This document shows positions 1,847 through 60,649 of a DNA stretch of 64,000 nucleotides, piece after piece. This stretch comes from Tetracentron sinense. Its lineage: Eukaryota > Streptophyta > Magnoliopsida > Trochodendrales > Trochodendraceae. The stretch lies in NCBI GenBank assembly GCA_015143295.1, contig CM026562.1, positions 11,746,041-11,810,040 of the forward strand, in the 5' to 3' direction. Made by a program: the position numbers and the translations under genes. Position 1 is the first letter of the stretch. Every line of letters starts with the position of its first letter. The notes under the pieces are model-generated. The model made no database searches. It was not told the DNA's origin and worked only from the letters and a program-made list of their open reading frames with translations.

Positions 1847-4026
1847 TGTCGCGACCCAAAACCCACCCTAGGAGTTAGAGTGAATCCTGGACGACTCATC
1901 ATGACTTGCATGACATGCTTGACCAAAACAACCTGCAAAAGGCCTGAAGCATATACAATAAAGGACAATAATAGCGGAAACTTAAACTATAAAGCACAGC
2001 AGAAGACTTAACCAAGACCCCCATGTCTATATACATATACATGATCCAAGTTTGTACAAAAGAAAATACACAAAAGAAGGTGCGGACATGCCCGTCAAAA
2101 TACATGGATATACTCTCATCTCACCCACAGCTATTCGCTCAGAATCTACCACAACCTAATAGTAACCCTCACCCTGAGGTTCCTCCACAGGCTCCTCAAC
2201 GTACTCCTCCTCCACCCATGGGCTAGGAGCACAGACATCGAATGGAGCAGCAGCTCCCTCAGAACTTACCGACATAAATGTACGGCTGAGCATGGAATAC
2301 TCAGCGTGTACCAAATACTAACCAACAGTCATAGCAAACAATAACTATGTGGAAAGCAGGAAGCAGTTCACAGATATAATGTACGAACAATTCATATCAT
2401 CACGCGATAGTAAAGTAGTTGATAATCATGCTTCCATTTCGTAACAGCCGATAAAATCCTTGAAAAACATCGTGCACTTGACTTGACTTAAAACATCATT
2501 TTCGTGCTTAAAAAAAACTTGTCTTGTCATGTGTCTTGTTTTGTCGTGTCGTGTCATGTCATGCGTGTCATGCTTGTATCATGCGTGTCATGCGTGCTTG
2601 CTTGGGAGTTCAACGTGCTCATGTACTTGTGAGATGCGCTTTATGAGATGCCTTGAGAGGGAAGGGAGACCCTTCTTTCATTATATGCCTTGAGAGGGAA
2701 GGGAGACCCTTCTTTAATGCAATGCACTTGTGAGTGAGGGGAGACCCCTTGTGGAAGGGAGGAAAGTGTAAACTCCCTCCTAAAAAATGCTTGTTCTTGT
2801 CCTCTTGTCAAAAGCGAAGTGAAAAATATCGTAGGATATGTCCCACTTCTAAGTCTTGTTCTTAAGAATACCGATAAAACATGTCATGCATGCCGTACTC
2901 GTGAGATCGTGTGCATACTTTCAATTGAAATTGAATATGACAATTTGGGGATTTCACACTACATAGAACATCAAAATTTGAGCAAGAAATCATTCATTCA
3001 AATTTTAGGCAAAGCAAGTAAGCACACTATCATAAGCCTTAGCAATTCCATAAACATTTAAACATGCATTTTTCCACTACAAATTGTCATTTTCTCCATC
3101 GAGGTATTTCATCAAACACATGGTATGTGTATTTTGGTTAACACCTAAATCGTTCATTTTATCCTACATGAATAATTCTTCATTCAATCCACATCATGTT
3201 TGTTCATTATTGAGGTGAAATACCCTTCCCATTTTAATCATCACAACACAACCCACGACATCCAATCGCCTATTCACGTCCACACAACCATCCATTCATT
3301 CCATCTCCTTATCTTGTTTAGAAATTTAGGGAAAACATAAAATAAAGGGAAAATAGAGATAATCGGTGAACTAGAAGGGTAGTGTAAGGTACTGACCTTG
3401 ATTTGGGTTGAAGAACACCCTTGGTGTGTAGTTCCAACTTAAGGAAGGATCCCTCTTTGAGTTTGAGGAACTCTATTTGCTTGAAGAAGGTCTTTTGCTT
3501 GAAAATCTTCAAGATGAGCTTCCCTTGATCTCCAATCCAAGCCTTCTTTGAAGGATTTCCTCAAAATCCTCTCTTCCCCTTTCTTCCTTCTTTCTCTCCC
3601 TTAGGTTAGAAAAGCCCTAAAATGAAAATCCTCAAATAGATCAAGGGTTAAAACCCTCAAATCCGGCTTCAGATTTTGTTGTTTTTCTCCAATTTTTTCC
3701 ACTTTGGTAATTCGGCCATAACTTTTGACTCGGTTGCCCGATTTTGACGATTCAACTTGCGTTGGATTCGTCTTTCGAAAAGGAACATTTCTAATGTTTC
3801 AAAATTTCCAATTTCTTCTTTATTTATTGCCTAAGTTACCCCTGAAGTTGACTGTTCCGTAAATGGGTTTCAGTAACTCGGGTTTTCGATATATTGGACT
3901 TAGGAATACTACTTGTTAACACTTAGAGTTGTTCAAAATTTTTCATTTCATAGAAATGGAAGATGACAAGGGCTTCATGCCTTGGCATGGGTCCCAATAC
4001 ATGGAAAAATATTCCGGGGTTCTACA
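1847..4026 (-). repeat. 5' LTR of G1
   Basis: In sense orientation it begins TGTAGAACCCCGG at 4026 and ends GGGTCGCGACA at 1847, 2180 bp. It is divergent from the A/E/F LTRs but collinear. It has a splice-donor-like AAG/GTCAGTAC near 3395, several GAAGGG-AGA-CCCTTC hairpins at 2660-2720, and the conserved micro-ORF. No CGATCGATCG palindrome array is seen where the other LTRs have one (about 3650-3760). Confidence 0.9.
2156..2275 (-). CDS. LTR micro-ORF, G1 copy (39 aa, PWVEEEYVEE)
   Basis: ATG at 2275 to TAG at 2156, 39 residues. It starts MSVSSEGAAAP, carries PWVEEEYVEEP, and ends GYY-stop. Compared with the A copy, several changes are synonymous third-position changes (CCT/CCA, GTC/GTT), and the stop position is identical. 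It is acidic, Pro/Glu-rich, and has no signal or membrane segment. The function is unknown. It would sit as an upstream ORF in the long leader of the genomic RNA. Confidence 0.5.
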   Translation of the reverse strand: MSVSSEGAAAPFDVCAPSPWVEEEYVEEPVEEPQGEGYY

Positions 4027-17230: not shown

Positions 17231-17238
17231 GAGATAGG

Positions 17239-17334
17239 CTAGAAGGATTAAGGATAAAATGAAAGCCATGGATGAACAGTCAATGCCCTAGATGAGAAAT
17301 TCAACCTATACGCAAGAAAACGTACAAGGCTTAC
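17239..17334 (-). other. Putative 96-bp leader intron before the post-pol ORF
   Basis: The sense strand has a strong donor AAAAAG/GTAAGCC and a T-rich acceptor CCTTAATCCTTCTAG/CC, only eight bases before the ATG at 17230. Size and signals fit a plant intron. Splicing would remove the hydrophobic N-terminal extension. Confidence 0.5.
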
Positions 17335-20829: not shown

Positions 20830-22426
20830 TGTAATGTAGAGCCCCGGACCTTTTCACATTTAATGCATGACACTTTCGTTGCCATTTTGCCTTTAAAGAG
20901 GAATAATTAATAAATAAGGAATAAATTAGAAATTTTGAAATATTAAAAATGTTCATTTTCGAAGTACGAACCCAACGCAAGTTGAATCGTCAAAATCGGA
21001 CGAACGAGTCAAAAGATATGACCAAAACAGGCTGGACCTGTAGACATGTATTATGAGATGGGTTGTGAATGGTGAATGGAGATGAATGTGGGCGATTGGA
21101 TGCCGTGTGTATTGATGTGATGGATGAACGGGGAGGGCATTGTACCCATAATAAACATACATATGTGATGTGAGTAAAACCCACCTAGAAAAGCATGTTG
21201 TAGGGTTAATAAATAATGAATGCACCATGTTTGATGAAATGCCAAGGTGAATAAAATGAATAATAAATTAAGAAAATGCATGTTTAAGGTTTATGGAAAT
21301 TGCTAGGGTCATGATAGTGTGATTGTTCGCTTTCCCTAAATGATATGAAGATTAAATTGCCCAAATCATTGATGTTATGTGTTATGAATTACTCAAATGC
21401 CATATTTAATTCCAAATGCAAGTATGCCCACGACCTCACGAGCACGCATACATGACAAGATCTACTGAGGTTTTCAAGAATGGGATTTAGAGGTGGGGCA
21501 TATCCTAAGATATGTTTTACCTCACTTTTGGGCAAGGACAAGACAATCATGCATACATATCATAAGAAGGGTCTCCCTTCCCTCTCAAGGCATCTCACAA
21601 GTGCATCTCACAAGGACATCTCACAAGTGAATCTCACAAGTGGAAGGAGAAGCATGAGCATTCTAGGAAGAAGGGTCTCCCTTCCCTCACAAGTAGATTA
21701 CTTTTCAGAACAAGCAAGCATGACACGCATGATACAAGCATGACACGCATGACACGGTAGACAAGGTTGCAAGCATAAAAAGGGTAATTTCAGTCAAGTC
21801 AAGTGCACAAGATTTCAAGGGTTTTACCGGTTTTTATGATTGCAAACATGATGACTTATATTGCTTTACTTTATTGTCATGATATGAATCATTCCTGCTT
21901 TATATGCGTGAATTTTTTCCTGCTTTATGCATGCTATCCGTATGCTATGACTGTTGGTTAGTGCTTGGTACCCGCTGAGTATTCCATGCTCAGCCGTACT
22001 TCTTTTGTCGGCAGGTTCTGAGGGAGCTGCTGCTCCATTTGATGTTTGTGCTCCTGGTCCATGGGTGGAGGAGGAGTACGTCGAGGAGCCTTTGGAGGAA
22101 CCTCCCGTAGAGGGTTATCAGTAGGTGGTGTTAGATTCTGAGTGGATTAGCTGTGGGTGAGCATGAGTGATTATATCCATGTATTTTGGCGGGCATGTCC
22201 GCACTTTCTTTGTTTTGATTTCTTTGTATTAAAACTTGGACCATGTGTATATACTTAGAGGTTAGACTTCCGTTGTGTTTTATAGTTATGTTTCCGCTGT
22301 CATCCTTTATTGTTTATACTCTGTGGGTTTTTGCAGGTTGGTTTGTCAAGCAAGTCATGTAAGCCATGATTAGTCGTCCAAAGTTCACTCTAACGCCTAG
22401 GGTGGGTTTTGGGTCGCGACATGTAA
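20830..22426 (+). mobile_element. Solo LTR S1 (Tekay type) with TSD TGTAA
   Basis: The LTR itself is 20835-22421 (TGTAGAGCCCCGG ... GGGTCGCGACA, 1587 bp). It is flanked by TGTAA at 20830-20834 and 22422-22426. No internal region is present, so it is a recombination product or a very short copy. Relative to the A LTR it lacks about 600 bp, from just after the CAAAACAG segment to ATTATGAGATG. That removes the palindrome array, the promoter region and the leader splice donor. Confidence 0.92.
22005..22124 (+). CDS. LTR micro-ORF, S1 copy
   Basis: The frame is identical to the other copies (SAGSEGAAAP ... PWVEEEYVEEP ... GYQ-stop). The initiating ATG has become TTG. The coding frame is kept although this is a solo LTR. 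Confidence 0.4.
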   Translation: MSAGSEGAAAPFDVCAPGPWVEEEYVEEPLEEPPVEGYQ

Positions 22427-24300
22427 TAGGTGCAGAAAATTCATATTTGATACCCGACTCATCACAAAATTCGTTGTACTTAGAGTTTTCAAACTCCTTT
22501 CCATGATCACTTCGAATTCAAGTGATTGGGCATCTTTTCTCATTTTGAATTTTCAAGCAAATACTTTTGAAATTGTCAAAAGCATCGGATTTCTCTTTTA
22601 TAAATGCCACCCATGACATTCTTGAGTAATCATCAACCATGACTAGGATGTAACGCTTTCCACCTAGGCTTTCAGTTCTTGTAGGACCCATAAGATCCAT
22701 ATGAATTAATTCCAGTGGATATGAAGTAGCAATACTTGAAGTCTTCTTATGTGGGGTTCTAATTTGTTTACCAATTTGGCATGGCCCACACACAGCAGTA
22801 GAAGGCTTTCCTAGTTTGGGAACACCTCTTACAAGCTCTTGCTTAGAGATTTTACATAGGTCTTTGAAGTTCATGTGACCTAGTCTTCGGTGCCACAAAT
22901 CAACCTTCTCAATTTTAGTCTTATAACAGACATTTGAGGGATTAGGACTGGGAATTAAGCCGTAGCAATTATCAGTGGTTCTCAACCCTTCTAGAACACA
23001 CTTAGCTTTACCATTAATGACTAAGCATTTATTTTGGGTAAAGTGCACAGCATGGTTATCATCATATAGTTGACTTATGCTAATTAAATTAGCTTTCAGT
23101 CCTTCAACATACAAGGCATCTTTCAATTTTGGTATGCCTGGTGAATCGATGATACCCTTCCCTTTGACTAAAGACTTGCTTCCATCACCAAATATAACAG
23201 TCCCATCTGGACAGTCCTCAAATTGAGTAAATAAGGACTTGTTACCTGTCATATGCCGAGAACACCCACTGTTGAAGTACCACATTTCTGTGTTTTGGGC
23301 TTTCAAGGCAGTGTGAATGACGAAGCACTTAAGGTCATCATTTCTTACATACACAGTCTTTAAACTTTGTTTAGATCTTTGATCATTAAACTGTGTATTA
23401 GAAACCTTTTTCCTTTTTGTCCTCCTTGACCTTTTCCTGTTTTGTTCAGTTCTAGCTTTTTGATTAGTCAAATTCTTTCCTCTTGAATAATCATTTGGAA
23501 TAAATTGACCAGTTCTTGTCATAGAGATTTGAGCAATTCTATTAACATCTTCGCTCAATATTCTAGACTTTTTAGCCAGAACCTGAATCTGCCTTTGAAG
23601 AGTCCCTTGACTTTGATTTTGGTTCCATGAACCATTTTGGGGAGCTCTCCTAAAAGCATTACAATTTGGTCGAATGTGACCTCTCACACCACAAAAGTGA
23701 CATGTGGGTATGAATCTTGGGAGAGGAGGAGGATTTCTTCTAAAAGGAATTTGATTCCTCATAGCATTTACTCTAGGAGCTGTATTTCTAGGCTTTACAA
23801 AATTTGTATAAGCCTTAGTACTTGATGTAGAAGGTAGATTCACTTTAGGATCAGAATGTATTGGCTCAAACACTGCACTAGCCATTGTACCAACAGCTAA
23901 AGGACCAGCTGGTGTGTCAGCATGTCCTATCCCAGATCTACTCGAATTTGACCCATATTTTCTAACTAATTCATCTAGGCCGCTAGTGTTACCAAACATT
24001 CTTACTTCTTTTTCAAGAGTATAGACCTTCTGAATCAAGTCAGTCTTGTCTTTAAGGGTAATTTGATGTTCTTTTTCAAGAAATTTCACCTTATCAACAA
24101 GAGAGTCTTTAAAAGTTTCCAGCTCCATTTGCAGATTTCTTAACTATTCAATTTTTTTCATGGAAGTGTCTCTTTCAACTTCTAATTTTCTGACCACATT
24201 AGTCAATGAGACATTCTCTTCCAAAAGACATTGAACTTTCATAACAAATGCTTCTTTTTCATTTTCCAACTGACTAACTAGAGCACTCTTCTCTTCTGCT
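22427..24300 (-). pseudogene. Sirevirus gag C-terminus, protease and integrase
   Basis: The main open frame is 24128-22518. In order it holds a coiled coil (about residues 1-50), a second CCHC knuckle CHFCGVRGHIRPNC, a basic region, protease, and integrase with its HHCC zinc site (HRRLGH ... CGPC) and first catalytic Asp (HMDLMGP). The protease motif reads WYFNSGCSRHMTG where the family has D-S-G, so the catalytic Asp is Asn. At 22518 a TGA replaces the Arg codon just before SDHGKEFEN (second catalytic Asp). Upstream, 24141-24300 is more coiled coil, separated by one TAG. Confidence 0.88.
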
Positions 24301-24515
24301 ACTAGTGTAGAGCCCCGGACCTTTTCACATTTATGCATGACCCTTCGTAGCCATTTTTCCTTTAAAGTAATGCAATTAATAAATAAGGAAGAAATTGGAA
24401 ATTCCGAAACGTCAGAAATGTTCGTTTTCGAAGTACGAACCCAACGCAAGTTGAATCGTCGAAATCCGACGAGCGAGTCAAAAGATATGGTCAAAACAGT
24501 CCAGACATACAGAGA

Positions 24516-24700
24516 ACCGATCGCTCGGTCCAGTCAGCGATCGATCGGTCCATAACCGATCGATCGGTAGCTATCGCGCGGTCAGAAAGTTTGTATGGGG
24601 AAATTTTCCAGAGAGTGAGTTTTTGACCGGTCGATCGGTCATAAACACCGATCGATCGGTAGGCAACCGATCGATCGGTCATTAACACCGATCGCTCGGT
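24516..24700. promoter_or_regulatory. Palindrome array in the A 5' LTR
   Basis: About eight copies of ACCGATCGATCGGT or near variants. The spacer contains TTTGTATGGGG and TTTTCCAGAGAG. It lies about 210-395 bp into the LTR, upstream of the inferred transcription start. The same array is at 31958-32142 in the 3' LTR. Confidence 0.7.
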
Positions 24701-25017
24701 ACTCGCGTTTTTGCAGAAAATTTAGAAGGGTGTTTTAGTCTTTTGAGTGGTTTACTCTTACCTTAAGAGTCTTGCCCGAGCCTTTAGGGCTTATTTGCAA
24801 TACTTAGAAGATTGAGAGCTAAGGAAGGGAGAAGAAGGCGACCCCTAACCTAGGGTTTGATTTTTGGAAGGGAAATCAAAGGGTTTGAGACCCTAGATTA
24901 TCCTCAAGCACGTTTTCCTTCAAGATCTCGGCTCAAGCTCGGGTGGAGCTCGTGTTCCAAGCTAGGGCAGCAACTCACGGTCGTTTGGAAGAGGGGTTTC
25001 TTCCTCATCTCTTCAAG

Positions 25018-26158
25018 GTCGGTACTTTTTACTACCCTCCTAGTTATAGCCTCTCCTTCCCTTATTTCTTCTTGTTTTCCTTCATATATATATATATATA
25101 TATTATGAGATGGGTGGTATGTATGGTAAATGGAGAGGGATGTTGGCGAATGGATGCCGTGTGGATGATGTAATGAATGAATGGGGAAGGGCATAGTACT
25201 AATAATAAACATACAAGTGTGATGTGAGTATAACCCACCTAGAAAAGCATGTTGTAGGGTTAATGAATAATGAATGTACCATGTTTGATGAAATGCCAAG
25301 GTGAATAAAATGAATGATAAATTAAGAAAATGCATGTTTAAGGTTTATGGAAATTGCTAGGGTTATGATAGTGTGATTGTTCGCTTTCCCTAAATGATAT
25401 CAATATTAAATTGCCCAAATCATTGATGTTATGTGTTATGAATTACTCAAATGCCATATTTAATTCCAAATGTAAGTATGCACACGACCTCACGAGCACG
25501 CATACATGACATGATTTACCGAGGTTTTCAAGAATGGGATTTAGAGGTGGGGCATATCGTACGATATGTTTTACCTCGCTTTTGGCAAGGACAAGACAAT
25601 CATGCATTTTCATAAGAAGGGTCTCCCTTCCCTCGCAAGTGCATACTTAACATAAGAAGGGCCTCCCTTCCCTCGCAAGTACATCTCACAAGAACATCTC
25701 ACAAGTGAAAGGACATGACATGAGCATTTAGGAAGAAGGGTCTCCCTTCCCTCACAAGTAGTTTACTTTTCCAAGCAAGCATGACATGGCATGACAAGCA
25801 TGGGCATTTAGGATGAAGGGTCTCCCTTCCCTCACAAGTAGTTTACTTTCCAAGCAAGCATGACATGGCATGACACGCATGATACGATAGGATAAGACAA
25901 ACGTGACAAGCTTCCAAGCAAGGAAATGGTATTTTCAGTCAAGTCAAGTGCACGGTATTTTCAAGGGTTTTACCGGCTTTTATGAATTCAAGCATGATTA
26001 TATACTCCTTTACTTTATTGTCCTGATATGAATTTTTCCTGTTTTATATGCATGAATTGTCTCCTGCTTTATATATGCTATCTGTATGCTATGACTATTG
26101 GTTAGTATTTAGTACCCACTGAGTATTCCATGCTCAGCCGTACTTCTTATGTCGGCAG
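25018..26158 (+). other. Putative 1.14-kb leader intron within the A LTR
   Basis: Donor CTTCAAG/GTCGGTAC and acceptor TTATGTCGGCAG/GTG. Comparable donors (AAG/GTCAGTAC in G1, AAG/GTTAGTAC in S2, AAG/GTCGGTAC in F, AAG/GTCAATAA in C) and acceptors (TTATCTTCAG/GT in C) occupy the same places in divergent LTRs. Splicing would shorten the leader and put the micro-ORF body in exon 2 without its ATG. Unproven. Confidence 0.4.
25610..25845 (+). repeat. GAAGGG-AGA-CCCTTC hairpin repeats in the A LTR
   Basis: Four copies of GAAGGGTCTCCCTTCCCTC (one reads GAAGGGCCTCCC), spaced 40-80 bp apart. Each can fold with arms GAAGGG/CCCTTC and a three-base loop. The 3' LTR has the same set at 33052-33287. Confidence 0.75.
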
Positions 26159-26268
26159 GTGATGGCGGAGCAGCTGCTCCATTTGATATCTGTGCTCCGA
26201 GCCCTTGGGTGGAGGAGGAGTACGTCGAGGAGCCTTTTGAGGAACCTCCAGTTGAGGGTTACCATTAG
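26149..26268 (+). CDS. LTR micro-ORF, A 5' copy (39 aa, PWVEEEYVEE)
   Basis: ATG to TAG, 39 residues: MSAGDGGAAAPFDICAPS, then PWVEEEYVEEP, ending EGYH. The same frame and stop position occur in G1, S1, D, E and F. The divergent LTRs S2 and C keep the core with different tails. It is strongly acidic with no cysteine motif beyond a single Cys. It lies about 660 bp upstream of the gag ATG, so in genomic RNA it is an upstream ORF in the leader. No known family is recognised. Real translation is inference from frame conservation. Confidence 0.55.
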   Translation: MSAGDGGAAAPFDICAPSPWVEEEYVEEPFEEPPVEGYH

Positions 26269-26575
26269 GTGGTTGTAGATTCTGAGAGGATTAGCTGTGG
26301 GTGAGATGAGAGATTTTATCCATGTATTTTGGCGGGTCTGTCCGCACTTTCTTTTGGTTACCTTTTTTTTGTATAAACTTGGACCATATGTATATACTTA
26401 GAGGTTTGTTAGACTTCCGCTGTGTTTTATAGTTATGTTTCCGCTATGATGTCCTCTATTGTATATGCTCTGTGGGGTTTTGCAGGTTGGTTTGTCAAGC
26501 AAGTCATGTAAGTCATGATTGAGTCGTCCAAGATTCACTCTAACTCCTAGGGTGGGTTTTGGGTCGCGACAGAAG

Positions 26576-26587
26576 TGGTATCAGAGC
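26576..26587 (+). promoter_or_regulatory. A primer binding site (tRNA-iMet type)
   Basis: TGGTATCAGAGC, four bases (GAAG) after the LTR end. It primes minus-strand DNA synthesis. Confidence 0.95.
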
Positions 26588-26931
26588 TTAGGCTTTAGGT
26601 CTCTAGGGTCACTTAGAATCTTATACCACGGCTTGACAAGAGCATATGTTAGGAAACAAGTTAGGAAGAAGGTAAGTCGGAAGAGAGTCTTGATCCAAGT
26701 ATAAGACTAAACTTTAGTCTTAGTCTAAAATGGTTGCTTTAACCAAGTACGGGTCCTAGGTACGCTAGAACACTAAAGTATAAGTATAATGTGATGAATA
26801 CTCTGATGACTTGATGTGATGTATATTAGTATTATACAACTAATACAAATTGAATTATTGTGAAATGACATGGAAATAAACTGTGGTTTTAGTGAGACTC
26901 ATGTGGTGCTATTGTTCTCAGGACTTTAGTC
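26588..26931 (+). other. A leader between primer site and gag
   Basis: 344 bp, A/T-rich. No conserved ORF. The gag ATG at 26932 opens the MRRGTRGRG frame found in E and F. Confidence 0.6.
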
Positions 26932-28212
26932 ATGAGGCGGGGCACACGGGGTCGTGGACCACACACCAGAGCTTCATCTTCTTCCAGAGATGAGGATGAG
27001 CAGCCGGACCTCTCCCAGGTCTTAGGCTCTATTGCTGAGACACTCGCCATCCTGGCGGCTCGGCAAACTATACCGGCATCAGCGGCACCTACTCCACCGC
27101 CCGCAGCTTCAGTACATCGTACAGCTGGAGTTGAGGCATTCAGGAGATTGAGGCCTCCATCCTTCCATGGGAGTGTGGACCCTCTTGCTGCGGAGGCGTG
27201 GATCCTCCAGATGGAGAAGATTTTTGCAGTCCTCTCGCCTACAGAGGAGGATAGAGTAGCATGGGCAGTTTTCATGCTAGAGGGTGAAGCCCACCATTGG
27301 TGGTTGTCCGCATTGAGGACGCGAGACTTGACCATGCAGGGTCAACCTTGGACTTGGGAGGAGTTCAAGGATACTTTTTACAAGAAGTATTTTCCGATCG
27401 GTGCACGGGAAAAGAAAGAGAGAGAATTCATCAACCTTGAGCAAGGTTCGATGTCTGTGGCTGCTTATGAGGCCAAGTTCTCGGAGCTATCACGCTTCGC
27501 GACACATATGATTGCCACCGAGGCAATGAAGGCGAGGAGGTTTGAGCAAGGGCTCAAGGATGTCATCATGGAGAAAGTGTCGGTCTTCAGGCACACCACT
27601 TACGCCGAAGTAGTGGATAAAGCCTTGTTGGTTGAGACCAATTCAGAGACCGTGTCCAAGAAGAGAGAATTGGCGAGAGGCCAATCTAGTGGTTCGGTAC
27701 CTTTAGAGAGGCGGGCCCGGACTGGTCCTTATCAGTATACATGGCCAGCACCACAGATGAGGCCGACTTATGTGCCTCCAGCACCCCGGCAGTATGTACC
27801 CCAGGCACCTCGACCTCAGGCTCTCCCGGCCCCACGGCCAGTTACCCCTCAGGCAGCAAGGTATACACCACCTCCGGTCCCTCCAGCCTACACATATGAG
27901 GTCTGCACTTCATGCGGCAAAAGGCATCCGGCAGGAGATTGCCGAAGAGCATCTGGTGGATGTTATCATTGCGGTCGCCAGGGCCACATGATCAGGGATT
28001 GCCCTAGCCGGCATTTACCAGGCCAGTCTCAGGGTAGTAAGCCCCCGACACGCCCAGCAGGATCATATCAGGCGTCATCTCAGACTACCCGGTCTACACC
28101 TCAGTCTCGCCAGGCGAACCAGGGGCGTGTATTTGCTTTGACAGAGGGTGATGCACTTGCATCTGATGATGTGGTGCAAGGTACGCGTTTGGAATTATTT
28201 TGTTATTCATGA
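26932..28212 (+). CDS. gag: Gag of Tekay element A
   Basis: 426 codons as unspliced RNA. The N-terminus is basic and Ser-rich. Residues about 60-200 form the retrotransposon gag (capsid) domain, with FHGSVDPLAAEAW, EGEAHHWWLSALR and FKDTFYKKYFP. A Pro-rich linker spans about 260-325. The first Cys cluster is CTSCGKRHPAGDC, and the CCHC nucleocapsid knuckle CYHCGRQGHMIRDC has its first Cys at residue 344. The last 11 codons (after VVQ) are read from the intron and end at a stop, so an unspliced message gives Gag alone. A spliced message leaves the frame at 28180 and joins pol at 28321. Start chosen by conservation in E and F. Confidence 0.93.
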   Translation: MRRGTRGRGPHTRASSSSRDEDEQPDLSQVLGSIAETLAILAARQTIPASAAPTPPPAASVHRTAGVEAFRRLRPPSFHGSVDPLAAEAWILQMEKIFAVLSPTEEDRVAWAVFMLEGEAHHWWLSALRTRDLTMQGQPWTWEEFKDTFYKKYFPIGAREKKEREFINLEQGSMSVAAYEAKFSELSRFATHMIATEAMKARRFEQGLKDVIMEKVSVFRHTTYAEVVDKALLVETNSETVSKKRELARGQSSGSVPLERRARTGPYQYTWPAPQMRPTYVPPAPRQYVPQAPRPQALPAPRPVTPQAARYTPPPVPPAYTYEVCTSCGKRHPAGDCRRASGGCYHCGRQGHMIRDCPSRHLPGQSQGSKPPTRPAGSYQASSQTTRSTPQSRQANQGRVFALTEGDALASDDVVQGTRLELFCYS

Positions 28213-28320
28213 TTGATATGTTGCGTTTTATTCCTTGTGTACATACTTGGTATGATATATATATACCTATGTGTATACTCTGTTGATGCATGGATTAACT
28301 CCACTAGTTAAAAATTTCAG
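28181..28320 (+). other. 140-bp intron between gag and protease-pol of A
   Basis: GTGCAAG/GTACGCG at the 5' end and AAAAATTTCAG/GAACCC at the 3' end. Removing it gives V-Q-G-T-L-L-V-N-E in one frame, which is exactly how element E reads (V-E-G-T-L-L-V-N-E) without an intron. The segment has in-frame stops and is A/T-rich. Pol has no ATG of its own near the protease start. Candidate branch point GGATTAAC, about 25-30 bases before the acceptor. Confidence 0.8.
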
Positions 28321-31300
28321 GAACCCTACTAGTCAATGAGTATTTGGCTCGAGTATTGATTGATACCGGGTCTACTCATTCGTTTGTCTCGCCGAGTTTT
28401 TCAGAAGGTTTTTCTGCAGGGCCAAGTCAGCTAGAACCGGAGTTAGCCATTTCGACTCCTCTCGGCAAAACAGTATTGGCAGATAAAGTGTATAGAAATA
28501 GTGTGGTCCAAGTTGGAAGCCACGAATTGGCGGTTGATCTCATCGTCCTTGGATTCCAGGACTTCGATGTTATATTGGGAATGGATTGGTTAGCAGCACA
28601 TCATGGGCATGTAGCTTGCTTTGAGAAAATGGTACTCTTCAAGCCAGTAGGAGGAAAACCATTCCACTTTCGCGGGTTGAAAAGCAGATCTATTGCTCGC
28701 TTTGCGGCATTGAGCTTAGCTAACCCCGAGGCAAAGGACTCATCAACTATTCCGGTTGTGAGTGAGTTCCTGGATGTATTTCCAGAGGAGTTGCCAGGAT
28801 TGCCTCCAGACAGGGAGATTGAGTTTATGATCGAGCTTGCACCAGGCACAGCTCCTGTATTCAGAGCTCCATATAGAATGGCCCCTATTGAACTCAAGGA
28901 GTTAAAGACTCAGTTGGAGGAATTGCAAGGCCTTGGCTTCATTCGACCAAGTGTCTCACCATGGGGTGCCCCAGTGTTGTTTGTTAAGAAGAAAGATGGC
29001 TCGATGCGGATGTGTGTCGATTACCGGCAATTGAACAAAGTCACTATAAAGAATAGGTATCCCTTGCCTAGGATTGATGACTTGTTCGATCAGTTGAAGG
29101 GAGCGAGATTTTTCTCAAAGATAGATCTTCGATCAGGCTATCACCAGTTAAAGATTAAGGCGAAAGATGTTCCCAAAACTGCTTTCAGGACTCGGTATGG
29201 ACACTACGAGTTCTTGGTGATGCCTTTTGGACTCACGAACGCGCCGGCAGCCTTTATGGATTTGATGAACCGGGTGTTCAGACCATACCTAGATCGGTGC
29301 GTGATTGTATTTGTTGATGACATTTTGGTCTATTCCCAGAACCGGGAAGATCACATACGCGACCTTCGCCTTGCATTGGAAATGTTAAGAGAGCACAAGC
29401 TATACGCCAAAATTAGCAAGTGTGAGTTTTGGTTGGAAGAGGTGGCATTCCTAGGCCACGTTGTTTCTGCGGAAGGCATCTCTGTTGATCCGAAGAAGAT
29501 AGAAGCTGTTATGAGTTGGGCGAGGCCCAAGAGTGTTACTGAGATACGCAGCTTTCTTGGGCTGGCAGGCTACTACAGGAGATTTGTAGAGGGTTTCTCT
29601 AGCCTTGCAGCACCGCTTACTCACCTGACAAGGAAGAATGCGAAGTTTGTTTGGAGCGACAAGTGTGAGATCAGTTTCACGGAACTGAAGAAGAGGCTTA
29701 CTACAGCTCCTGTCCTTACAGTACCATCTGGACCTCTTGGGTATGAGGTGTACAGTGATGCCTCACACGTTGGACTTGGATGTGTGCTTATGCAACACAA
29801 GAAGGTCATTGCCTATGCATCAAGGCAATTGAAGGAGCATGAGAAGAATTACCCCACGCACGACTTAGAGCTTGCCGCAGTCGTGTTTGCACTCAAGATT
29901 TGGCGTCATTACCTTTATGGGGTGGAGTTCTATGTGTTCACTGATCACAAGAGTCTCAAGTATCTCTTTTCCCAAAGGGAGCTGAATCTAAGGCAAAGGC
30001 GTTGGATGGAATTTCTGAAGGACTATGATTGTACCATTCAATACCACCCGGGTAAAGCAAATGTAGTGGCTGATGCTTTGAGTAGAAGACCTCCGGGGTT
30101 ATTAGCATGCATGTTAGTGCAGGAATGGAAGCTACTTGAAGACTTGGCAAATCTGGACATTAGTGTGAATGACTCTGTCCGTAGTCCTATCTTGGCAAAT
30201 GTCACGGTTCGGCCATACATTATAGATTTGATCCAAGAATACCAAGCCACGGATGCTGAATTGTTGGCTTATCGGGATAAGGAGGTTGCTAAGGGTAGTG
30301 AGGACTTCTCTCTCACTAGCCGAGGTGCTATCACATTCAAGGGAAGGCTGTGTGTTCCAGCCAATGCAAATCTTCGGAGGGAGATTATGGATGAAGCCCA
30401 CCGGGCAAAGTACACTGTGCATCCAGGGGGTACGAAGATGTACCGGAACCTCAAGAGTCACTTTTGGTGGCGGAATATGAAGAGGGAGGTTGCGGAATAT
30501 GTAGCTCGGTGCTTGGTGTGCCAACAGGTGAAAGCAGAACACATGCGGCCCGCAGGTCTATTACAGTCCCTTCCGATCCCCGAGTGGAAATGGGAGAACA
30601 TATCCATGGATTTCATAGTTGGCTTGCCAAAGACAACAAGGGGTTCAGATGCGATATGGGTAGTAGTGGATCGTTTGACGAAGTCCGCTCACTTCTTGCC
30701 TTACCGAACTACTTCCAACTCTAGTCAGTTAGCTGCTTTGTACATCAAGGAAGTGGTGAGGTTGCACGGAGTGCCTGTCAGTATTGTGTCGGATCGGGAT
30801 CCAAGATTCACTTCACGATTCTGGAAAAGCTTTCAGGAAGCTATGGGTTCCCGACTTGATTTCAGCACTGCTTTTCATCCACAAACGGATGGACAAACCG
30901 AGAGGGTGAACCAAGTAATAGAAGATATGCTTCGGGCTTGTATGCTGGATTTCAAAGGCAGTTGGGAAGAGCACTTGCCTTTGGTGGAGTTTGCCTACAA
31001 CAATAGCTATCAGGCGAGTATCCAAATGGCTCCGTTCGAGGCTTTGTATGGGCGAAGCTGCAGGTCTCCTCTCTACTGGGATGAGGTAGGAGAAAGAAAA
31101 GTACTTGGTCCGGAGTTGATTGAGCAAACAGCTAGTATAGTCAAGATCATCCGGGATCGGTTGAAAGCCGCTCAAGATCGCCAAAAGAGCTATGCAGACA
31201 CGCGCCGCAGGGACTTGGAATTTCAAGTAGGGGATCGAGTCTTTGTGAAAGTATCTCCTAGCAAAGGGATTATGAGATTCGGCAAAAGAGGCAAGCTTAG

Positions 31301-31646
31301 TCCTCGCTATGTTGGACCGTTTGAGATTATCACGCGGGTTGGTGAAGTTGCTTATCGAGTAGCTCTTCCACCTCACATGGCCGCGGTTCACAACGTTTTC
31401 CACGTGTCTATGCTTCGGAAGTACATTGCGGACCCTTCGCATATACTAGAATTGGAACCGTTGGAAATTCGAGAAGATCTCACGTTGGTTGAGAAGCCGA
31501 TTCACATATTGGATCGGAGAGATCAAGTGCTTCGCAACAAGACAATCCCTTTGGTTCTCGTGCAGTGGCAACACCATGCTCGGGAAGAAGCTACATGGGA
31601 GCGTGAAGCCGAAGTCAAAGCGAAGTACCCGGAATTGTTTGAATGA
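28321..31646 (+). CDS. pol: Protease-RT-RNase H-integrase-chromodomain polyprotein of A
   Basis: The open frame runs without an ATG from the intron acceptor to TGA at 31644-31646, about 1108 codons. In order: protease with [10 protein letters not shown] and [11 protein letters not shown] with [24 protein letters not shown] and the catalytic FVDD near 29310; RNase H with [12 protein letters not shown] and TDHKSLKYL; integrase with an HHCC zinc site (H and H near HPGGTK, CLVC) and the DDE triad in [15 protein letters not shown] and [11 protein letters not shown]; and a C-terminal chromodomain ([12 protein letters not shown] ... [15 protein letters not shown]). These chromodomains are thought to steer insertion to marked chromatin. 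All catalytic residues are present. Probably made as Gag-Pol after splicing. Confidence 0.94.
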
Positions 31647-31730
31647 ATTTTGTATAGGTTTTGTATATGTAGCTTGTAATATTGTTTGATTCTGTAATGC
31701 ATGTCTCATCCAAATTTCGAGGACGAAATT

Positions 31731-31747
31731 TTGTAAGGGGGGAAGGA
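31731..31747 (+). promoter_or_regulatory. A polypurine tract
   Basis: GTAAGGGGGGAAGGA directly before the 3' LTR. It primes plus-strand synthesis. Confidence 0.9.
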
Positions 31748-34015
31748 TGTAGAGCCCCGGACCTTTTCACATTTATGCATGACCCTTCGTAGCCATTTTT
31801 CCTTTAAAGTAATGCAATTAATAAATAAGGAAGAAATTGGAAATTCCGAAACGTCAGAAATGTTCGTTTTCGAAGTACGAACCCAACGCAAGTTGAATCG
31901 TCGAAATCCGACGAGCGAGTCAAAAGATATGGTCAAAACAGTCCAGACATACAGAGAACCGATCGCTCGGTCCAGTCAGCGATCGATCGGTCCATAACCG
32001 ATCGATCGGTAGCTATCGCGCGGTCAGAAAGTTTGTATGGGGAAATTTTCCAGAGAGTGAGTTTTTGACCGGTCGATCGGTCATAAACACCGATCGATCG
32101 GTAGGCAACCGATCGATCGGTCATTAACACCGATCGCTCGGTACTCGCGTTTTTGCAGAAAATTTAGAAGGGTGTTTTAGTCTTTTGAGTGGTTTACTCT
32201 TACCTTAAGAGTCTTGCCCGAGCCTTTAGGGCTTATTTGCAATACTTAGAAGATTGAGAGCTAAGGAAGGGAGAAGAAGGCGACCCCTAACCTAGGGTTT
32301 GATTTTTGGAAGGGAAATCAAAGGGTTTGAGACCCTAGATTATCCTCAAGCACGTTTTCCTTCAAGATCTCGGCTCAAGCTCGGGTGGAGCTCGTGTTCC
32401 AAGCTAGGGCAGCAACTCACGGTCGTTTGGAAGAGGGGTTTCTTCCTCATCTCTTCAAGGTCGGTACTTTTTACTACCCTCCTAGTTATAGCCTCTCCTT
32501 CCCTTATTTCTTCTTGTTTTCCTTCATATATATATATATATATATATTATGAGATGGGTGGTATGTATGGTAAATGGAGAGGGATGTTGGCGAATGGATG
32601 CCGTGTGGATGATGTAATGAATGAATGGGGAAGGGCATAGTACTAATAATAAACATACAAGTGTGATGTGAGTATAACCCACCTAGAAAAGCATGTTGTA
32701 GGGTTAATGAATAATGAATGTACCATGTTTGATGAAATGCCAAGGTGAATAAAATGAATGATAAATTAAGAAAATGCATGTTTAAGGTTTATGGAAATTG
32801 CTAGGGTTATGATAGTGTGATTGTTCGCTTTCCCTAAATGATATCAATATTAAATTGCCCAAATCATTGATGTTATGTGTTATGAATTACTCAAATGCCA
32901 TATTTAATTCCAAATGTAAGTATGCACACGACCTCACGAGCACGCATACATGACATGATTTACCGAGGTTTTCAAGAATGGGATTTAGAGGTGGGGCATA
33001 TCGTACGATATGTTTTACCTCGCTTTTGGCAAGGACAAGACAATCATGCATTTTCATAAGAAGGGTCTCCCTTCCCTCGCAAGTGCATACTTAACATAAG
33101 AAGGGCCTCCCTTCCCTCGCAAGTACATCTCACAAGAACATCTCACAAGTGAAAGGACATGACATGAGCATTTAGGAAGAAGGGTCTCCCTTCCCTCACA
33201 AGTAGTTTACTTTTCCAAGCAAGCATGACATGGCATGACAAGCATGGGCATTTAGGATGAAGGGTCTCCCTTCCCTCACAAGTAGTTTACTTTCCAAGCA
33301 AGCATGACATGGCATGACACGCATGATACGATAGGATAAGACAAACGTGACAAGCTTCCAAGCAAGGAAATGGTATTTTCAGTCAAGTCAAGTGCACGGT
33401 ATTTTCAAGGGTTTTACCGGCTTTTATGAATTCAAGCATGATTATATACTCCTTTACTTTATTGTCCTGATATGAATTTTTCCTGTTTTATATGCATGAA
33501 TTGTCTCCTGCTTTATATATGCTATCTGTATGCTATGACTATTGGTTAGTATTTAGTACCCACTGAGTATTCCATGCTCAGCCGTACTTCTTATGTCGGC
33601 AGGTGATGGCGGAGCAGCTGCTCCATTTGATATCTGTGCTCCGAGCCCTTGGGTGGAGGAGGAGTACGTCGAGGAGCCTTTTGAGGAACCTCCAGTTGAG
33701 GGTTACCATTAGGTGGTTGTAGATTCTGAGAGGATTAGCTGTGGGTGAGATGAGAGATTTTATCCATGTATTTTGGCGGGTCTGTCCGCACTTTCTTTTG
33801 GTTACCTTTTTTTTGTATAAACTTGGACCATATGTATATACTTAGAGGTTTGTTAGACTTCCGCTGTGTTTTATAGTTATGTTTCCGCTATGATGTCCTC
33901 TATTGTATATGCTCTGTGGGGTTTTGCAGGTTGGTTTGTCAAGCAAGTCATGTAAGTCATGATTGAGTCGTCCAAGATTCACTCTAACTCCTAGGGTGGG
34001 TTTTGGGTCGCGACA
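31748..34015 (+). repeat. 3' LTR of A (2268 bp)
   Basis: Collinear with 24306-26571 at a constant offset of 7442 up to the (AT)n run, then 7444. The only difference found by eye is two bases in that run. It holds the same array (31958-32142) and micro-ORF. Confidence 0.96.
33593..33712 (+). CDS. LTR micro-ORF, A 3' copy
   Basis: Identical to 26149-26268. In this position it would be read only if the 3' LTR itself drives transcription. Confidence 0.45.
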   Translation: MSAGDGGAAAPFDICAPSPWVEEEYVEEPFEEPPVEGYH

Positions 34016-34020
34016 ACTAG

Positions 34021-40702: not shown

Positions 40703-42036
40703 AGTCGCGATTCAGGTTTTTTAAAAGTTACGAAAATGAGGGTTTTAAACCCCTAGTCTATAAATAACACTTCTAATTCGAGAGTTTTAGACTCTAAAGA
40801 GTTTCTCACCTAATTTGGGAGAGATTTAGGAAAAACCTTCAAGAGGATTTAGCATGGAGGAGAAGGAATTTGCTTGGAGAAGGAGGAAGCTTGGAGATCT
40901 TCCCCAAAGCCTTCTTGAGTGATTTGGATCCAAGGGAAGGATCCCTAAGGTCAATAAACTATCTAAGTCAACCCTATTATGATGTTTTGTGAATATTAAT
41001 ATGATAAAAATTGAGATTAGATATGTTTTTTCCCTAATTATGTATGCATTAAGTTTATTAGAGAAAGAAATGTGGTTTAATACTATGGGTGAAATGTATG
41101 GAGGATGGGAAATACCATAGAGGATGGGATGAATGTATGGATGTGGATTGTGTTTGGGTTGTATGGATGGATTATGATGTGATGAAATATTGGAAATGAG
41201 AAAGGTCAATGTATTCATAAATTACATACTCAAGGTGTTTGTTGAAATGCTTGAGATGATAAATTTTAATATGACACCATGAAATTATTGTGAAACTAAG
41301 TCAAATATGTATTGTTGTTTGTCATGATAAATTATGCCCTATTTATATTGCATGATGATCGACATTCAGATAGGCCAAATCTTAGAAGAAGTCCCCCATG
41401 TCAGGAATTCTCTAACTAGGGAGATGTAACCTAACGAAGTTTCTTGGCGGAAGATGGAAACCTAAGCGATGATCGAGTTCGAATATCTATCACAAGACTT
41501 AAGTACTATTGTACATGCATGGTAAGGAGTATGGTAGACAAGTTCACGTGTCTCATATGATCATGCATTGAACACGAACATCCACTCTACGCATTGTCAC
41601 ACTTATGTTATGCTATGAAAGAATGATCCCCCAGTTACGAACATACCACTCTATACGTTGCCGCGACTATGTTACAAAGCTATGAAATATGCGTTGAAGG
41701 GACAAAAACACTATGAAATATGCGTTGATGAGACAATTACACTACGAATCATGTGTGTATGAGATATGTTAACCATCATGAGCATGTATGAGTCTATGCA
41801 TATGTTAAGTTCAAGTTCATGAATAAGAGTCACACAAGTACACAAGTCAATGATGTTATGACATGTTATATGTTTCGCACTCTGATTTTGTTAATGTTAC
41901 GTGAATCTATTATGGTTAAGCACAGATAAACTAAGCTATGATATTGATATTGATATTGCTCATGCTACTTTATGTTGTTGTTGGTTTGTTTATCCACTAA
42001 GTATTCCATACTTAGTCGACCTATCATTATCTTCAG

Positions 42037-42134
42037 GTCTAGGTCAGGAGCCTTGGATTGAGGAAGCGTACATCGAGGAAGGTGAGCTTCTTGAGGAGGA
42101 GACTAGGGATTTTGATAGTTATCCCTATTGTTAG
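42037..42134 (+). CDS. LTR micro-ORF, divergent C copy
   Basis: Directly after an AG acceptor-like site the frame reads GLGQEPWIEEAYIEEGE ... SYPYC-stop, matching the PWVEEEYVEE core with conservative changes (V to I twice). No ATG lies at the MSAG position. The frame is open further upstream but that part is not conserved. Confidence 0.4.
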
Positions 42135-42926: not shown

Positions 42927-44207
42927 TGTCGCGACCCAAAACCCACCCTAGGAGTTAGAGTGAACTTTGGATGACTAATCATGGCTTACATGACTTGCTT
43001 GACAAACCAACCTGTAAAAACCCACAGAGCATATACAAAGAGGATGTAAGCAGCGGAAACATACTCTAACATAGCACAGCGGAAGTCTAATCAAACCTCT
43101 ATGTATATACGAATCCAAGTTTATACAAAAGTAACCAAAAGAAAGTGCGGACAGACCCGCCAAAATACATGAATGTATATCTCTCATCTCACCCACAGCT
43201 ATTCACTCAGAAGCTACAACCACCTAATGGTAACCCTCTACTGGAGGTTCCTCCAAAGGTTCCTCGATGTACTCCTCCTCCACCCAAGGGCTCGGAGCAC
43301 AGACATCAAAAGGAACAGCTGCTCCGCCATCACCTGCCGACATAAGAAGTACGGCTGAGCTTGGAATACTCAGCGGGTACTAAATACTAACCAATAGTCA
43401 TAGCATACAGATAGTATACATAATTCAGGAGCAATTCATACATGTTAGAAGGAAACAATTCATATCATACAAGGAAGCAAAGCAATTTATAATCATGCTT
43501 GTAATTTGTAGAAAGCCGATGAAACCTCTTGAAAACATCGTGAACTTGACTTGGCTTGAAATATCTTTTCGTACTTGAAAGCTCGTCTTGTCTATCTTGC
43601 TTGATTCTTGTATATTGTGTCATGTCATGCATGTCATGCGTGCTTGCTTGTGATCATGTAACTTGTGAGATGCACTTGTGAGATGCCTTGAGAGGGAAGG
43701 GAGACCCTTCTTTATGCAATACACTTGCGAGGGAAGGGAGACCCTTCTTCATGATATGTATGTACTTGCGAGGGAAGGGAGGCCCTTCTTCATGATATGC
43801 ACTTGTGAGTGAGGGGAGACCCCTTGTGGGATGTTTGTTCTTGTTTTCTTGTGAAAAGCGAGGTAAAACATATCGTAGGATATGTCCCACCTCTCAACCT
43901 TGTTCTTGAAAGCCGCGGTAAATTCATGTCATGCATGCCGTGCTTGTGGGATCGTGTGCATACTTGCATTTGAATTTAAACATGACATTTGGGTAATTTC
44001 ACAACACATATAACATCAATGATTGAGCAATGTAATATTCATATCATTTAGGGAAAGCAAGAAAACACACTATCATAGGCCCTAGCAATATCCATAATTT
44101 ATTAGGCATGCATTTCCTAATTTACAACTCACTTTATTCACCTTGGCATTTCATCAAACATGGTGTGTTCATTATTCATTATTCCTTTAAACTTAAGTCA
44201 TGCTTTT
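42927..44207 (-). repeat. Tekay-type LTR D, interrupted by E
   Basis: In sense its 3' end GGGTCGCGACA is at 42927. It reads back through the micro-ORF and GAAGGG hairpins (43690-43800) to 44207, where E inserts at CATGCTTTT. The 5' part of this LTR would lie beyond E, outside the window. It could be a solo LTR or a 3' LTR; this cannot be decided here. Confidence 0.85.
43224..43343 (-). CDS. LTR micro-ORF, D copy
   Basis: ATG at 43343 to TAG at 43224, 39 residues (MSAGDGGAAVPFDVCAPS, PWVEEEYIEEP, ending EGYH). One conservative change in the core. Confidence 0.5.
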   Translation of the reverse strand: MSAGDGGAAVPFDVCAPSPWVEEEYIEEPLEEPPVEGYH

Positions 44208-44506: not shown

Positions 44507-44626
44507 CTACTGATAACCCTCTACGGGAGGTTCCTCCAAAGGCTCCTCGACGTACTCCTCCTCCACCCATGGACCAGGAGCACAAACATCAAATGGAGCA
44601 GCAGCTCCCTCAGAACCTGCCGACAT
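44507..44626 (-). CDS. LTR micro-ORF, E copy
   Basis: ATG at 44626 to TAG at 44507, 39 residues (MSAGSEGAAAPFDVCAPG, PWVEEEYVEEP, ending EGYQ). Confidence 0.5.
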   Translation of the reverse strand: MSAGSEGAAAPFDVCAPGPWVEEEYVEEPLEEPPVEGYQ

Positions 44627-46320: not shown

Positions 46321-46547
46321 ACTTGCAGTAAAATTCCATATTTTTCCTCCTTCTTGTTTCGGCCATAACTTTTGACTCGCTCGTCAGATTTCGACGATTC
46401 AACTTGCGTTGGGTTCGTACTTCGAAAAGGAACATTTTTGACGTTTCGGAATTTCCAATTTCTTCCTTATTTATTAATTGCACTACTTTAAAGGGAAAAT
46501 GGCTACGAAAATGTCATGCATAAATGTCAAAAGTTCGGGGCTCTACA

Positions 46548-49600: not shown

Positions 49601-51224
49601 CAATATCTCTACTTTTCAACCCACGAAAGTGGAATGGTTTTCCTTCTACCGGCTTGAAGAGTACCATTTTCTCAAAGCAAGCTACATGCCCATGATGTGA
49701 TGCTAACCAATCCATTCCCAATATAACATTAAAGTCTTGAAATCCAAGAACGATGAGATCAACCGCCAACTCGTGGCTTCCAACTTGGACCACACTATTT
49801 CTATACACTTTATCTTCCAACACTGTTTTGGCGAGGGGAGTCGAAATGGCTAACTCTGGTTTTAGCTGTCTAGGCTCCTCAGAAAAGCCTTCTGAAAAAC
49901 TCGGCGAGACAAATGAATGAGTAGACCCGGTATCAATCAACACTCGAGCCAAATACTCATTGACTAGTAGGGTTCCTTCCACCACATCATCAGATGCAAG
50001 TTCATCACCCTCTGTCAAAGCAAACACACGCCCCTGGTTCACCTGGCGAGACTGAGGTGTAGATCGGGTAGTCTGAGATGACGCCTGATACGATCCTGCT
50101 GGGCGTGCTGGTGGCCTAATCCCCTGAGACTGGCCTGGTAAATGCCGGGTAGGGCAATCCCTGATCACGTGGCCCTGGCGACCACAGTGAAAACATCCAC
50201 CCGATGCTCTTAGGCAATCTCCCGCTGGGTGCCTTCGGCCGCATGAAGGGCAGGCCTCGTGTGAGCGGGTAGGAGGGGCCTGAGGTGGAGCATTTCTCGC
50301 CACCTGAGGTGCAACTGGCCATGGGGCCGGGAGAGCCTGAGGTCGAGGTGCCTGTGGCACGTACTGTCATGGTGCTGGGGCCGCATAAGTCGGCCTCATC
50401 GGTGGTGCTGGCCATGTATACTGATAAGGGCCGGTACGAGCCCGCCTCTCTGGAGGTGCTGAACTACCGGCTTGGCCTCTCGCCAACTCTCTCTTCTTAG
50501 ACACCGCTTCAGAATTGGCCTCGACCAATAAGGCCTTGTCTACCACTTCAGGGTAGGTAGCATGCCTGAAAACGGAAACCTTCTCTATAATAACATCCTT
50601 GAGCCCTTGCTCAAATCTTCTCGCCTTCATTGCCTCAGTAGCAACCATATGAGGCGCAAACCTCGACAATTCTGAGAACTTGGCCTCATAAGCGGCCACA
50701 GACATCGAACCTTGCTCAAGGTTGATGAATTCTCTCTCTTTCTTTTCCCGAGCTCCAACTGGGAAATACTTCTTATAGAACGTATCCTTGAACTCCTCCC
50801 AAGTCCACGGTTGACCTTGCATGGTCAAGTCCCGTATCCTCAATGCGGACAACCACCAATGGTGGGCTTCACCTTCTAGCATGAAGACTGCCCATGCTAC
50901 TTTCTCTTCCTTCGTAGGAGAGAGCACCGCAAATATCTTCTCCATCTGGAGGATCCATGCCTCCGCAGTAAGAGGGTCCACACTCCCGTGGAAGGATGGA
51001 GGCCTCAATCTCCTGAATGCCTCAACTCCTGCGGTACGATGTACTGGAGCTGCGGGCGGTGGAGTAGGTGCCGCCGATGATGGTATAGCCTGCCGAGCCG
51101 CCAGTATAGCGAGTGTCTCAGCAATAGAGCCTAAGACCTGAGAGAGGTCCGGCTGCTCATCCTCATCCCGTGAAGAAGAGGAAGCTCTGGTATGTGGTCC
51201 ACGACCCCGTGTGCCCCGCCTCAT
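46651..51224 (-). pseudogene. Gag-Pol of E, intronless, one stop and one frameshift
   Basis: From ATG at 51224 gag runs in one frame to a TGA at 50367 (Arg codon lost in the Pro-rich linker). The same frame then continues through the CCHC knuckle [14 protein letters not shown], across the gag-protease junction at 49976/49975 without an intron, and on through DTGS protease, RT (FVDD), RNase H and integrase to about 47470. A one-base loss there shifts the frame (WKSSKMLW where A reads WKSFQEAM). Integrase end and chromodomain follow in 47475-46651 ([15 protein letters not shown]). Otherwise nearly the same protein as A. Confidence 0.92.
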
Positions 51225-54290: not shown

Positions 54291-54410
54291 ATGTCGGCAG
54301 GTTCCGAGGGAGCTGCTGCTCCAGTTGATGTTTGTGCTCCTGGTCCATGGGTGGAGGAGGAGTACGTCGAGGGGCCTTTGGAGGAACCTCCCGTAGAGGG
54401 TTACCATTAG
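54291..54410 (+). CDS. LTR micro-ORF, F copy
   Basis: ATG to TAG, 39 residues (MSAGSEGAAAPVDVCAPG, PWVEEEYVEGP, ending EGYH). One core change, E to G. Confidence 0.5.
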   Translation: MSAGSEGAAAPVDVCAPGPWVEEEYVEGPLEEPPVEGYH

Positions 54411-60508: not shown

Positions 60509-60649
60509 TCAACAGTAGTCGAGGTATGGCCACACATCCAAGTCCCCATCTTCCTGAGACTGCCATGGGATAGGTGGCTCCCTCTCCTCTACATACTCCT
60601 CCTCGACCCAAGGCTCGGGGTCGAGAACATCCACAGTACCTGCCGACAT
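60509..60649 (-). CDS. LTR micro-ORF, divergent S2 copy (46 aa)
   Basis: ATG at 60649 to TGA at 60509. It starts MSAGTVDVLDPE, then PWVEEEYVEE exactly as in A, with all three nucleotide differences over the core synonymous (GTG/GTC, TAC/TAT, GTC/GTA). The tail is longer and unrelated (REPPIPWQSQED ... YLDYC). Confidence 0.55.
   Translation of the reverse strand: MSAGTVDVLDPEPWVEEEYVEEREPPIPWQSQEDGDLDVWPYLDYC

Follow-up and report, generated by a model that had tools for sequence, protein, structure and literature searches.

A short acidic reading frame inside the long terminal repeats (LTRs) of a Ty3/gypsy element of Tetracentron sinense, a Tekay-like one with a weak chromodomain match, is protein-coding, which we regard as practically certain. 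The frame lies in a 64,000-nucleotide stretch of the genome, hereafter the window (GenBank assembly GCA_015143295.1, contig CM026562.1, positions 11,746,041 to 11,810,040), where it recurs in the LTRs of a complete element, called element b, and in further copies. Judging from the bases at its start, the frame is probably a spliced exon entered at an AG|G within the LTR (the bar marks the exon boundary). Chances are about even that its splice partner is the donor at the end of gag, which would give Gag an acidic tail.

Coding selection on a frame inside the LTRs

The frame sits about 1.85 kb into the 2.27-kb LTR of element b. As a unit of 120 nucleotides (nt), 39 codons plus stop, it occurs at 2156-2275 (-), 26149-26268, 33593-33712, 43224-43343 (-), 44507-44626 (-) and 54291-54410, and extraction, translation and a six-frame scan of the window for the core recovered every position listed in the first-pass annotation. 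That annotation, made from the sequence alone, had also described divergent copies, and these readings held: the ATG of S1 (22005-22124) is replaced by TTG, S2 (60509-60649, -) retains the core PWVEEEYVEE, which differs from that of copy b by three synonymous changes, and the core of family C reads PWIEEAYIEE. The open frame of family C spans 41895-42134 without an ATG, and the start given earlier, 42037, is the base right after TTCAG. The candidate exon, the sequence directly ahead of it and its other copies in the window are as follows.

26119..26137 (+): stem-loop CTGAG-TATTCCATG-CTCAG, just ahead of the exon
26138..26158 (+): spacer and putative 3' splice site ...TCGGCAG|, including a family-limited ATG at 26149
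26159..26268 (+): acidic coding sequence, read as a phase-1 exon, with stop, in the 5' LTR of element b (pN/pS and indel tests)
33603..33712 (+): identical exon sequence in the 3' LTR of element b, predicted as the expressed copy
2156..2265 (-): exon copy, family A, with a damaged acceptor that reads GTAAGT, not GCAGGT
22015..22124 (+): exon copy S1, upstream ATG is TTG, AG|GT intact
42037..42134 (+): exon copy, family C, TTCAG|GT, without ATG
43224..43333 (-): exon copy, family A
44507..44616 (-): exon copy, family A
54301..54410 (+): exon copy, 5' LTR of element f
60509..60639 (-): exon copy, family S2

We scanned the 1.16-Gb genome and found an LTR end with a primer-binding site at 4331 places. 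Our sample consists of 90 LTRs read from the first 100 of these, all on contig C1, and was therefore picked regardless of the frame and is not genome-random. The frame was scored as present when at least 6 of 10 core residues lay 330-430 nt ahead of the LTR end, and it was found in 82 of the 90. It stays open for at least 33 codons past the AG in 66 of these; the other 16 are interrupted by a stop or frame shift, are shorter or lack the AG. Of the eight LTRs lacking the frame, L012 is another kind of element, L021, L053 and L084 hold other DNA at the site, L069 is riddled with indels, and L046, L093 and L098 are decayed or stopped. By their tails the copies fall into families A (...VEGYQ/H), S2 (...DLDVWPYLDYC), D (...DRSRDFDFC and similar) and E (...DLDRWPYY), with L047, L073, L076/L088 and L081 as single or paired other types. 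The core common to all families is of the PWVEEEY type, altered in some copies.

The pattern of substitution points to selection on the protein. The ratio of nonsynonymous to synonymous differences (pN/pS) among 16 hand-chosen representatives was 0.39 in frame, against 1.03 and 1.30 in the shifted frames. By group it was 0.27 for A with L047 and L073, 0.22 for S2 with L081, and 0.12 for D (comparison of D1 to D3; 0.96 and 2.22 when shifted), where purifying selection was strongest; the value for E, 0.36, comes from two sequences with controls of 0.59 and 0.98 and is not decisive. Over five divergence bins, using 71 of the 82 sequences in pairs that are not independent, pN/pS stayed at 0.19-0.41. 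Third codon positions hold 16 of the 31 variable sites in the family-A copies of the window, and most of the D1-D2 changes (7/3/18 by codon position). Of 14 pairs tested, 10 had an excess of third-position changes significant at the 0.05 level; L011-L023 and L018-L091 (0.058 each), L011-L047 (0.22) and L009-L089 (0.24) fell short of it.

Indels gave a similar picture. Without any filter for an intact frame, the exon had 4.6 indels per kb and the 3' flank 20.5, about 4.4 times fewer (72 of 75 loci, the other 15 LTRs serving as references); in a frame-filtered set the figures were 6.4 and 29 (291 of 800 random pairs). Lengths that are multiples of three made up 159 of 203 exon indels versus 474 of 2500 flank indels in the filtered set, and 10 of 39 versus 70 of 439 in the unfiltered one, where the excess is weak. 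Thus neither a dN/dS (the corresponding rate ratio) near 1 nor indels as frequent as in the flank, the two outcomes that would have spoken against coding, was observed, and the first-pass claim of a translated LTR-internal sequence, kept across divergent families by selection on its protein, is supported by pN/pS, third positions and indels alike.

Conservation at the DNA or RNA level (promoter, structure or packaging), with the frame incidental, is very improbable. A conserved stem-loop adjoins the frame, and the two together are set apart from most of the LTR, as such a signal might be. The constraint is nevertheless codon-specific: in nine of nine pairs compared with their flanks, third positions differed more than flanking DNA and first and second positions less, with no such constraint overall in the shifted frames. 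Moreover, a 241-nt stretch of the region folded no better than shuffled sequence (z 0.19).

Relatives outside the genome were found on two ENA contigs of 743-753 bases, P0001 and P0002, which carry ORFs of 47-48 residues matching the exon profile. P0001 was detected with a profile of window sequences alone (E 1.8e-3), and P0002 with one that included P0001 and genome copies (E 2.0e-11). Scans of the viral contigs collection with gag and the exon, and of the genome contigs collection with the exon, returned no relative.

As a separate observation, L011 and L056 differ more in the exon (0.31 at third positions, 0.07 at the others) than in the DNA downstream of it (0.075), which suggests exchange of the exon between families by recombination. 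A second stem-loop lies past the exon stop (L011:1728-1771, L014:1736-1779, L081:720-763 and others), and on reading, its differences between families are partly compensatory (GCGG/CCGC, GGTGG/CCACC, GAGTGG/CCACTC).

How the frame is entered

At the start of the frame an AG is commoner than an ATG. A homologous AG, nearly always AG|G, was found there in 77 of the 82 copies and is in phase with the core in 72, having been lost in L009, L027, L028, L033 and L042. An in-frame ATG ahead of the core is present in 65 copies and absent from 17. This AG reads as the 3' splice site of a phase-1 exon. The 15-20 variable bases between it and the stem-loop change in length by single bases, so this spacer is not coding.

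One alternative is a micro-ORF started by the ATG in the leader upstream of gag, acting as a regulatory upstream ORF or as a free peptide, with near-cognate or lost starts in the ATG-less families. We consider it unlikely. It would account for the ATG in 65 copies, for the position that this ATG shares in families A, S2, L047, L076 and L081, and for selection on the peptide. The D families are its main difficulty: they have no common ATG or near-cognate start, and in D1 a TGA directly precedes TCGGCAG|GT in all seven near-identical copies (L030, L058, L061, L063, L066, L074 and L090), yet their pN/pS is the lowest. Eleven of the 17 ATG-less copies are among the 13 D copies; the others are single E, A, S2 and L073-type copies, some of them decayed. 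The two D copies with an ATG carry it in the stem-loop (L016) and two codons ahead of the core (L037), and in L037 and L089, at least, the in-frame ATG lies inside the exon. The stem-loop ATG, too, is out of frame in most family-A copies of the window, being in frame in copy a and S2. The first-pass interpretation therefore divides: a coding sequence inside the LTRs under protein selection is supported, and a free ATG-started leader ORF is not, given 17 copies without an ATG that include most of D, the group with the strongest constraint.

The position of the promoter bears on whether the frame is part of the leader. Among 24 copies examined, 17 have a TATA-like motif between the frame and the LTR end, but 13 have one upstream of the frame. 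The downstream motif would place the exon in U3, so that the 3' LTR would hold the expressed copy. We also noted that a ..CAGG(A/T)TGGTTT-like motif recurs about 85 nt ahead of the LTR end in many loci; it could be either the transcription start or another acceptor.

Splicing of the element and a candidate partner for the LTR exon

Element b has the Ty3/gypsy order gag, protease, reverse transcriptase, RNase H and integrase (Pfam, applied to six large ORFs only), and at the integrase end a chromodomain match (PF00385, E 3.3e-4, 21.0 bits) under the 25.1 cut-off. Its primer-binding site, TGGTATCAGAGC, starts at 26576, and a polypurine tract precedes 31748. We take the Tekay label of the first-pass annotation to be plausible, given the long LTRs and the tRNA-Met-type primer-binding site. 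The parts of the element are listed here, together with a spliced junction in another copy.

24306-34015 (+): complete element b (LTR self-comparison; ends and flanks read), target-site duplication ACTAG at both ends
24306..26571 (+): 5' LTR of element b, 2266 bp, TGTAGAG...CGACA
26672..26921 (+): leader intron candidate, donor AAG|GTAAGT, acceptor TTCTCAG|GACTTTAGTC ahead of the gag ATG
26932..28180 (+): gag exon, Retrotrans_gag and zinc knuckle (Pfam), ending ...ASDDVVQ-G| in phase 1
28181..28320 (+): gag/pol intron, 140 nt, exactly absent from a minus-strand copy at about 49972-49977
28321..31646 (+): pol exon with protease, reverse transcriptase, RNase H, integrase and a weak chromodomain match (Pfam)
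31748..34015 (+): 3' LTR of element b, 99.9% alike to the 5' LTR (self-comparison)
49972..49977 (-): spliced gag|pol junction in another element copy (46355-51862), equal to C12:11795997-11796028

The gag/pol intron is real, and the element is spliced. Alignment of the gag/pol junctions showed that the minus-strand copy in the window lacks exactly the 140 bases between CAAG|GTACGC and TTTCAG|GAACCC. The same spliced junction was found at 13 places in the genome, the one in the window included, and a reversed control pattern at none; a single spliced ancestor may lie behind some of them. Spliced RNA of the element was evidently reverse-transcribed and integrated. Seven families were found to have a GT at the phase-1 position that follows ...S(D/E)DVVQ, as CAAG|GTAC in A, D1, D2, S2, L081 and E3 and as AGG|GTAC in E; an eighth stretch fetched for this comparison, L107, proved to be other DNA.

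The gag donor, the pol acceptor and the LTR exon are all in phase 1. Both the LTR exon and the pol exon open on the second base of a codon. The gag donor is therefore compatible with each of the two acceptors, and in element b both joins give a glycine codon. Six donor-like sites (at least 7 of 9 consensus bases) were found in element b, namely the leader donor (9/9), the gag donor and four sites in pol (7/9 each). The only ones in coding sequence and in phase 1 are the gag donor and 29422 in pol, and use is demonstrated for the gag donor alone among the six. The leader intron candidate has counterparts, CTCAG|GA before the gag ATG, in six further copies (L011, L023, L030, L014, L025 and L097), and its stretch is retained in three copies with a spliced gag/pol junction.

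We propose that the acidic frame is a short coding exon in the LTR of this Tekay-like element, entered by splicing at the AG|G behind the stem-loop, and that the copy in the 3' LTR is used as an alternative last exon. The donor that closes gag, CAAG|GTACGC, would usually be joined to pol, giving Gag-Pol, and at times to the LTR exon, with a predicted join of ...GATGTGGTGCAAG to GTTCTGAGG... in family A or GTGCTCGG... in family D. The product would be the basic Gag with a tail of about 35-45 residues; computed isoelectric points are 9.5 for Gag and about 4 for the tail in eight representatives. Where the intron is kept, plain Gag with a short, unconserved end would result. The full three-way switch at one donor (retention for Gag, the pol join for Gag-Pol and the 3' LTR join for acidic-tailed Gag) is a somewhat less than even prospect. 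We infer that tailed Gag would be a regulatory or structural isoform, acting for example in RNA export, assembly or nucleic-acid release. Besides being acidic, the tail may be disordered: AlphaFold returned no confident fold for the S2 exon peptide (pLDDT 66.7, pTM 0.16).

The LTR exon could instead take its start codon from an exon elsewhere, in the upstream LTR, in pol or in flanking DNA. The acceptor logic does not depend on the donor, and the phase-1 site in pol (29422, AGT|GTGAGT) has a near-identical context in elements f and m. This alternative is nonetheless doubtful, though slightly less so than the ATG-started micro-ORF. No evident conserved partner exon was seen in the 1.3-1.5 kb of LTR compared upstream of the frame, no ATG in the required phase stands ahead of the leader donor (26672) in the copies read, and no donor-like site of at least 7/9 lies past 30528. 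Between LTR families, it is the stem-loop/exon block and the last 50 nt that recur most. Stretches shared far upstream occur in some pairs, L018/L081 (151 nt, 74%) and L016/b (126 nt, 80%); the latter was rejected as a partner exon, being a run of palindromic ACCGATCG(A/C)TCGGT units. Such repeats occur in the upstream part of the LTR in families A and D (about 24514-24704 of the window in element b; L016).

Several points weigh against splicing from gag into the LTR exon. Most copies do carry an in-frame ATG, and because of this family A, taken alone, would fit an ATG-started ORF. The pyrimidine tract of the putative acceptor is mediocre, the gag donor scores 7/9, like the four sites in pol, against 9/9 for the leader donor, and TATA-like motifs, which flank the exon on either side, give no more than a guess at the transcription start. 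In 25 aligned representatives of the stem-loop 80.3% of cells pair, against 80.2% in shuffles; as covariation does not exceed that of shuffles, the structure is plausible rather than proven. Ala-Gly precedes the exon in P0002 and most copies, and Ala-Ser in P0001. The predicted junction of gag with the LTR exon has no copy in the genome, which is weak evidence because such an RNA, lacking the polypurine tract, is not expected to integrate. A search with family-A words only gave two candidates and no long protein ending in the tail. The proposal as a whole, drawn from genomic sequence, is one to which we give an even chance.

Three other roles for the exon were tried and rejected. It is not the natural end of pol, which stops at 31646, right behind the chromodomain match. 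Nor is it the N-terminus of Gag, since the frame ends in a stop of its own, and families A and D1 differ by one base in the spacing of acceptor and gag ATG. The AG|GT is not a donor either: in most families what follows the GT is a poor match to a donor, and it is past this point that coding constraint sets in.

Related systems and neighbouring features

Accessory proteins coded in LTR sequence and expressed by splicing are known from animal retroviruses, namely sag of mouse mammary tumour virus and nef of human immunodeficiency virus; these are other proteins, and they overlap U3 of the 3' LTR. In CRM and some Reina (Bingo) chromoviruses the gag-pol ORF runs on into the 3' LTR (PMC3605345). 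These are chromodomain Ty3/gypsy elements with protein-coding sequence in the 3' LTR, as the element described here, with its weak chromodomain match, would be. Their LTR coding sequence is the uninterrupted end of gag-pol, whereas in element b the end of pol falls about 100 nt short of the LTR, and the exon lies about 1.85 kb inside it, behind an acceptor-like AG of its own. Cer1 of Caenorhabditis elegans makes a spliced, Gag-sharing accessory protein, CERV (PMC10309623). It is comparable as a Ty3/gypsy accessory protein from a spliced mRNA (here a predicted one), a likeness by description; unlike the exon here, the CERV ORF is large and outside the LTR. The logic of an accessory protein made by a three-way switch would be comparable to that of CERV, Rev or Nef, with the last exon copied into both LTRs.

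Among plant LTR elements, Ogre, EVADE and BARE are known to be spliced (PMC12786077). As with the introns of Ogre and the shGAG of EVADE and BARE, splicing would choose between Gag-type products and the full polyprotein (PMC12786077, PMC6317226); these are other lineages, and the passages mention no LTR exon. As in Ogre, an intron between coding regions is removed in some transcripts, here judged from spliced retro-copies, and the position of the gag/pol intron differs from that reported for Ogre in the available text. Some sunflower elements are spliced, and Tekay is absent from the expressed set (PMC7730604). Additional ORFs (aORFs) of plant LTR elements include a 5' aORF of 402 residues in sunflower Tekay 13-2 (PMC7264820, PMC11728184), which likewise shows that this lineage or its relatives can code for accessory products; as described there, it is long and classed 5' of gag-pol, unlike the short LTR exon. 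In the sunflower work the ORF step ran with minimum_length at 300, a value under which a short exon could go unnoticed.

Among the matches listed from the open-licence literature, none reports a coding exon inside Tekay LTRs in its title or the opening of its abstract, which does not prove absence, and the available passages of surveys and reviews mention neither an LTR-internal exon nor a Tekay gag/pol intron. The combination appears to be new; run-on into the 3' LTR, splicing of plant elements and spliced accessory proteins are related kinds already known. LTRs are commonly treated as non-coding and taken as neutral clocks. If the proposal is true, a very abundant group of plant retrotransposons has an unrecognised accessory protein, whose last exon is copied into both LTRs across a large lineage, and a way to balance Gag and Gag-Pol; LTR divergence between families would then not be neutral over the whole length.

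Rfam gave nothing at the gathering threshold over 25900-27000 of the window. Elsewhere in the window, element f is apparently inserted in a minus-strand element, just past that copy's exon (51861), and the S2 copy lies within a further insertion (60230-62495) inside the 3' LTR of f, by self-comparison. The ORF at 16142-17269 (-) matches Transposase_32 (PF20167), a family described as related to Athila ORF1 in the available part of PMC11728184. ORFs of copia type are found at 18850-20781 (-), 22518-24128 (-) and 33991-35229 (-).
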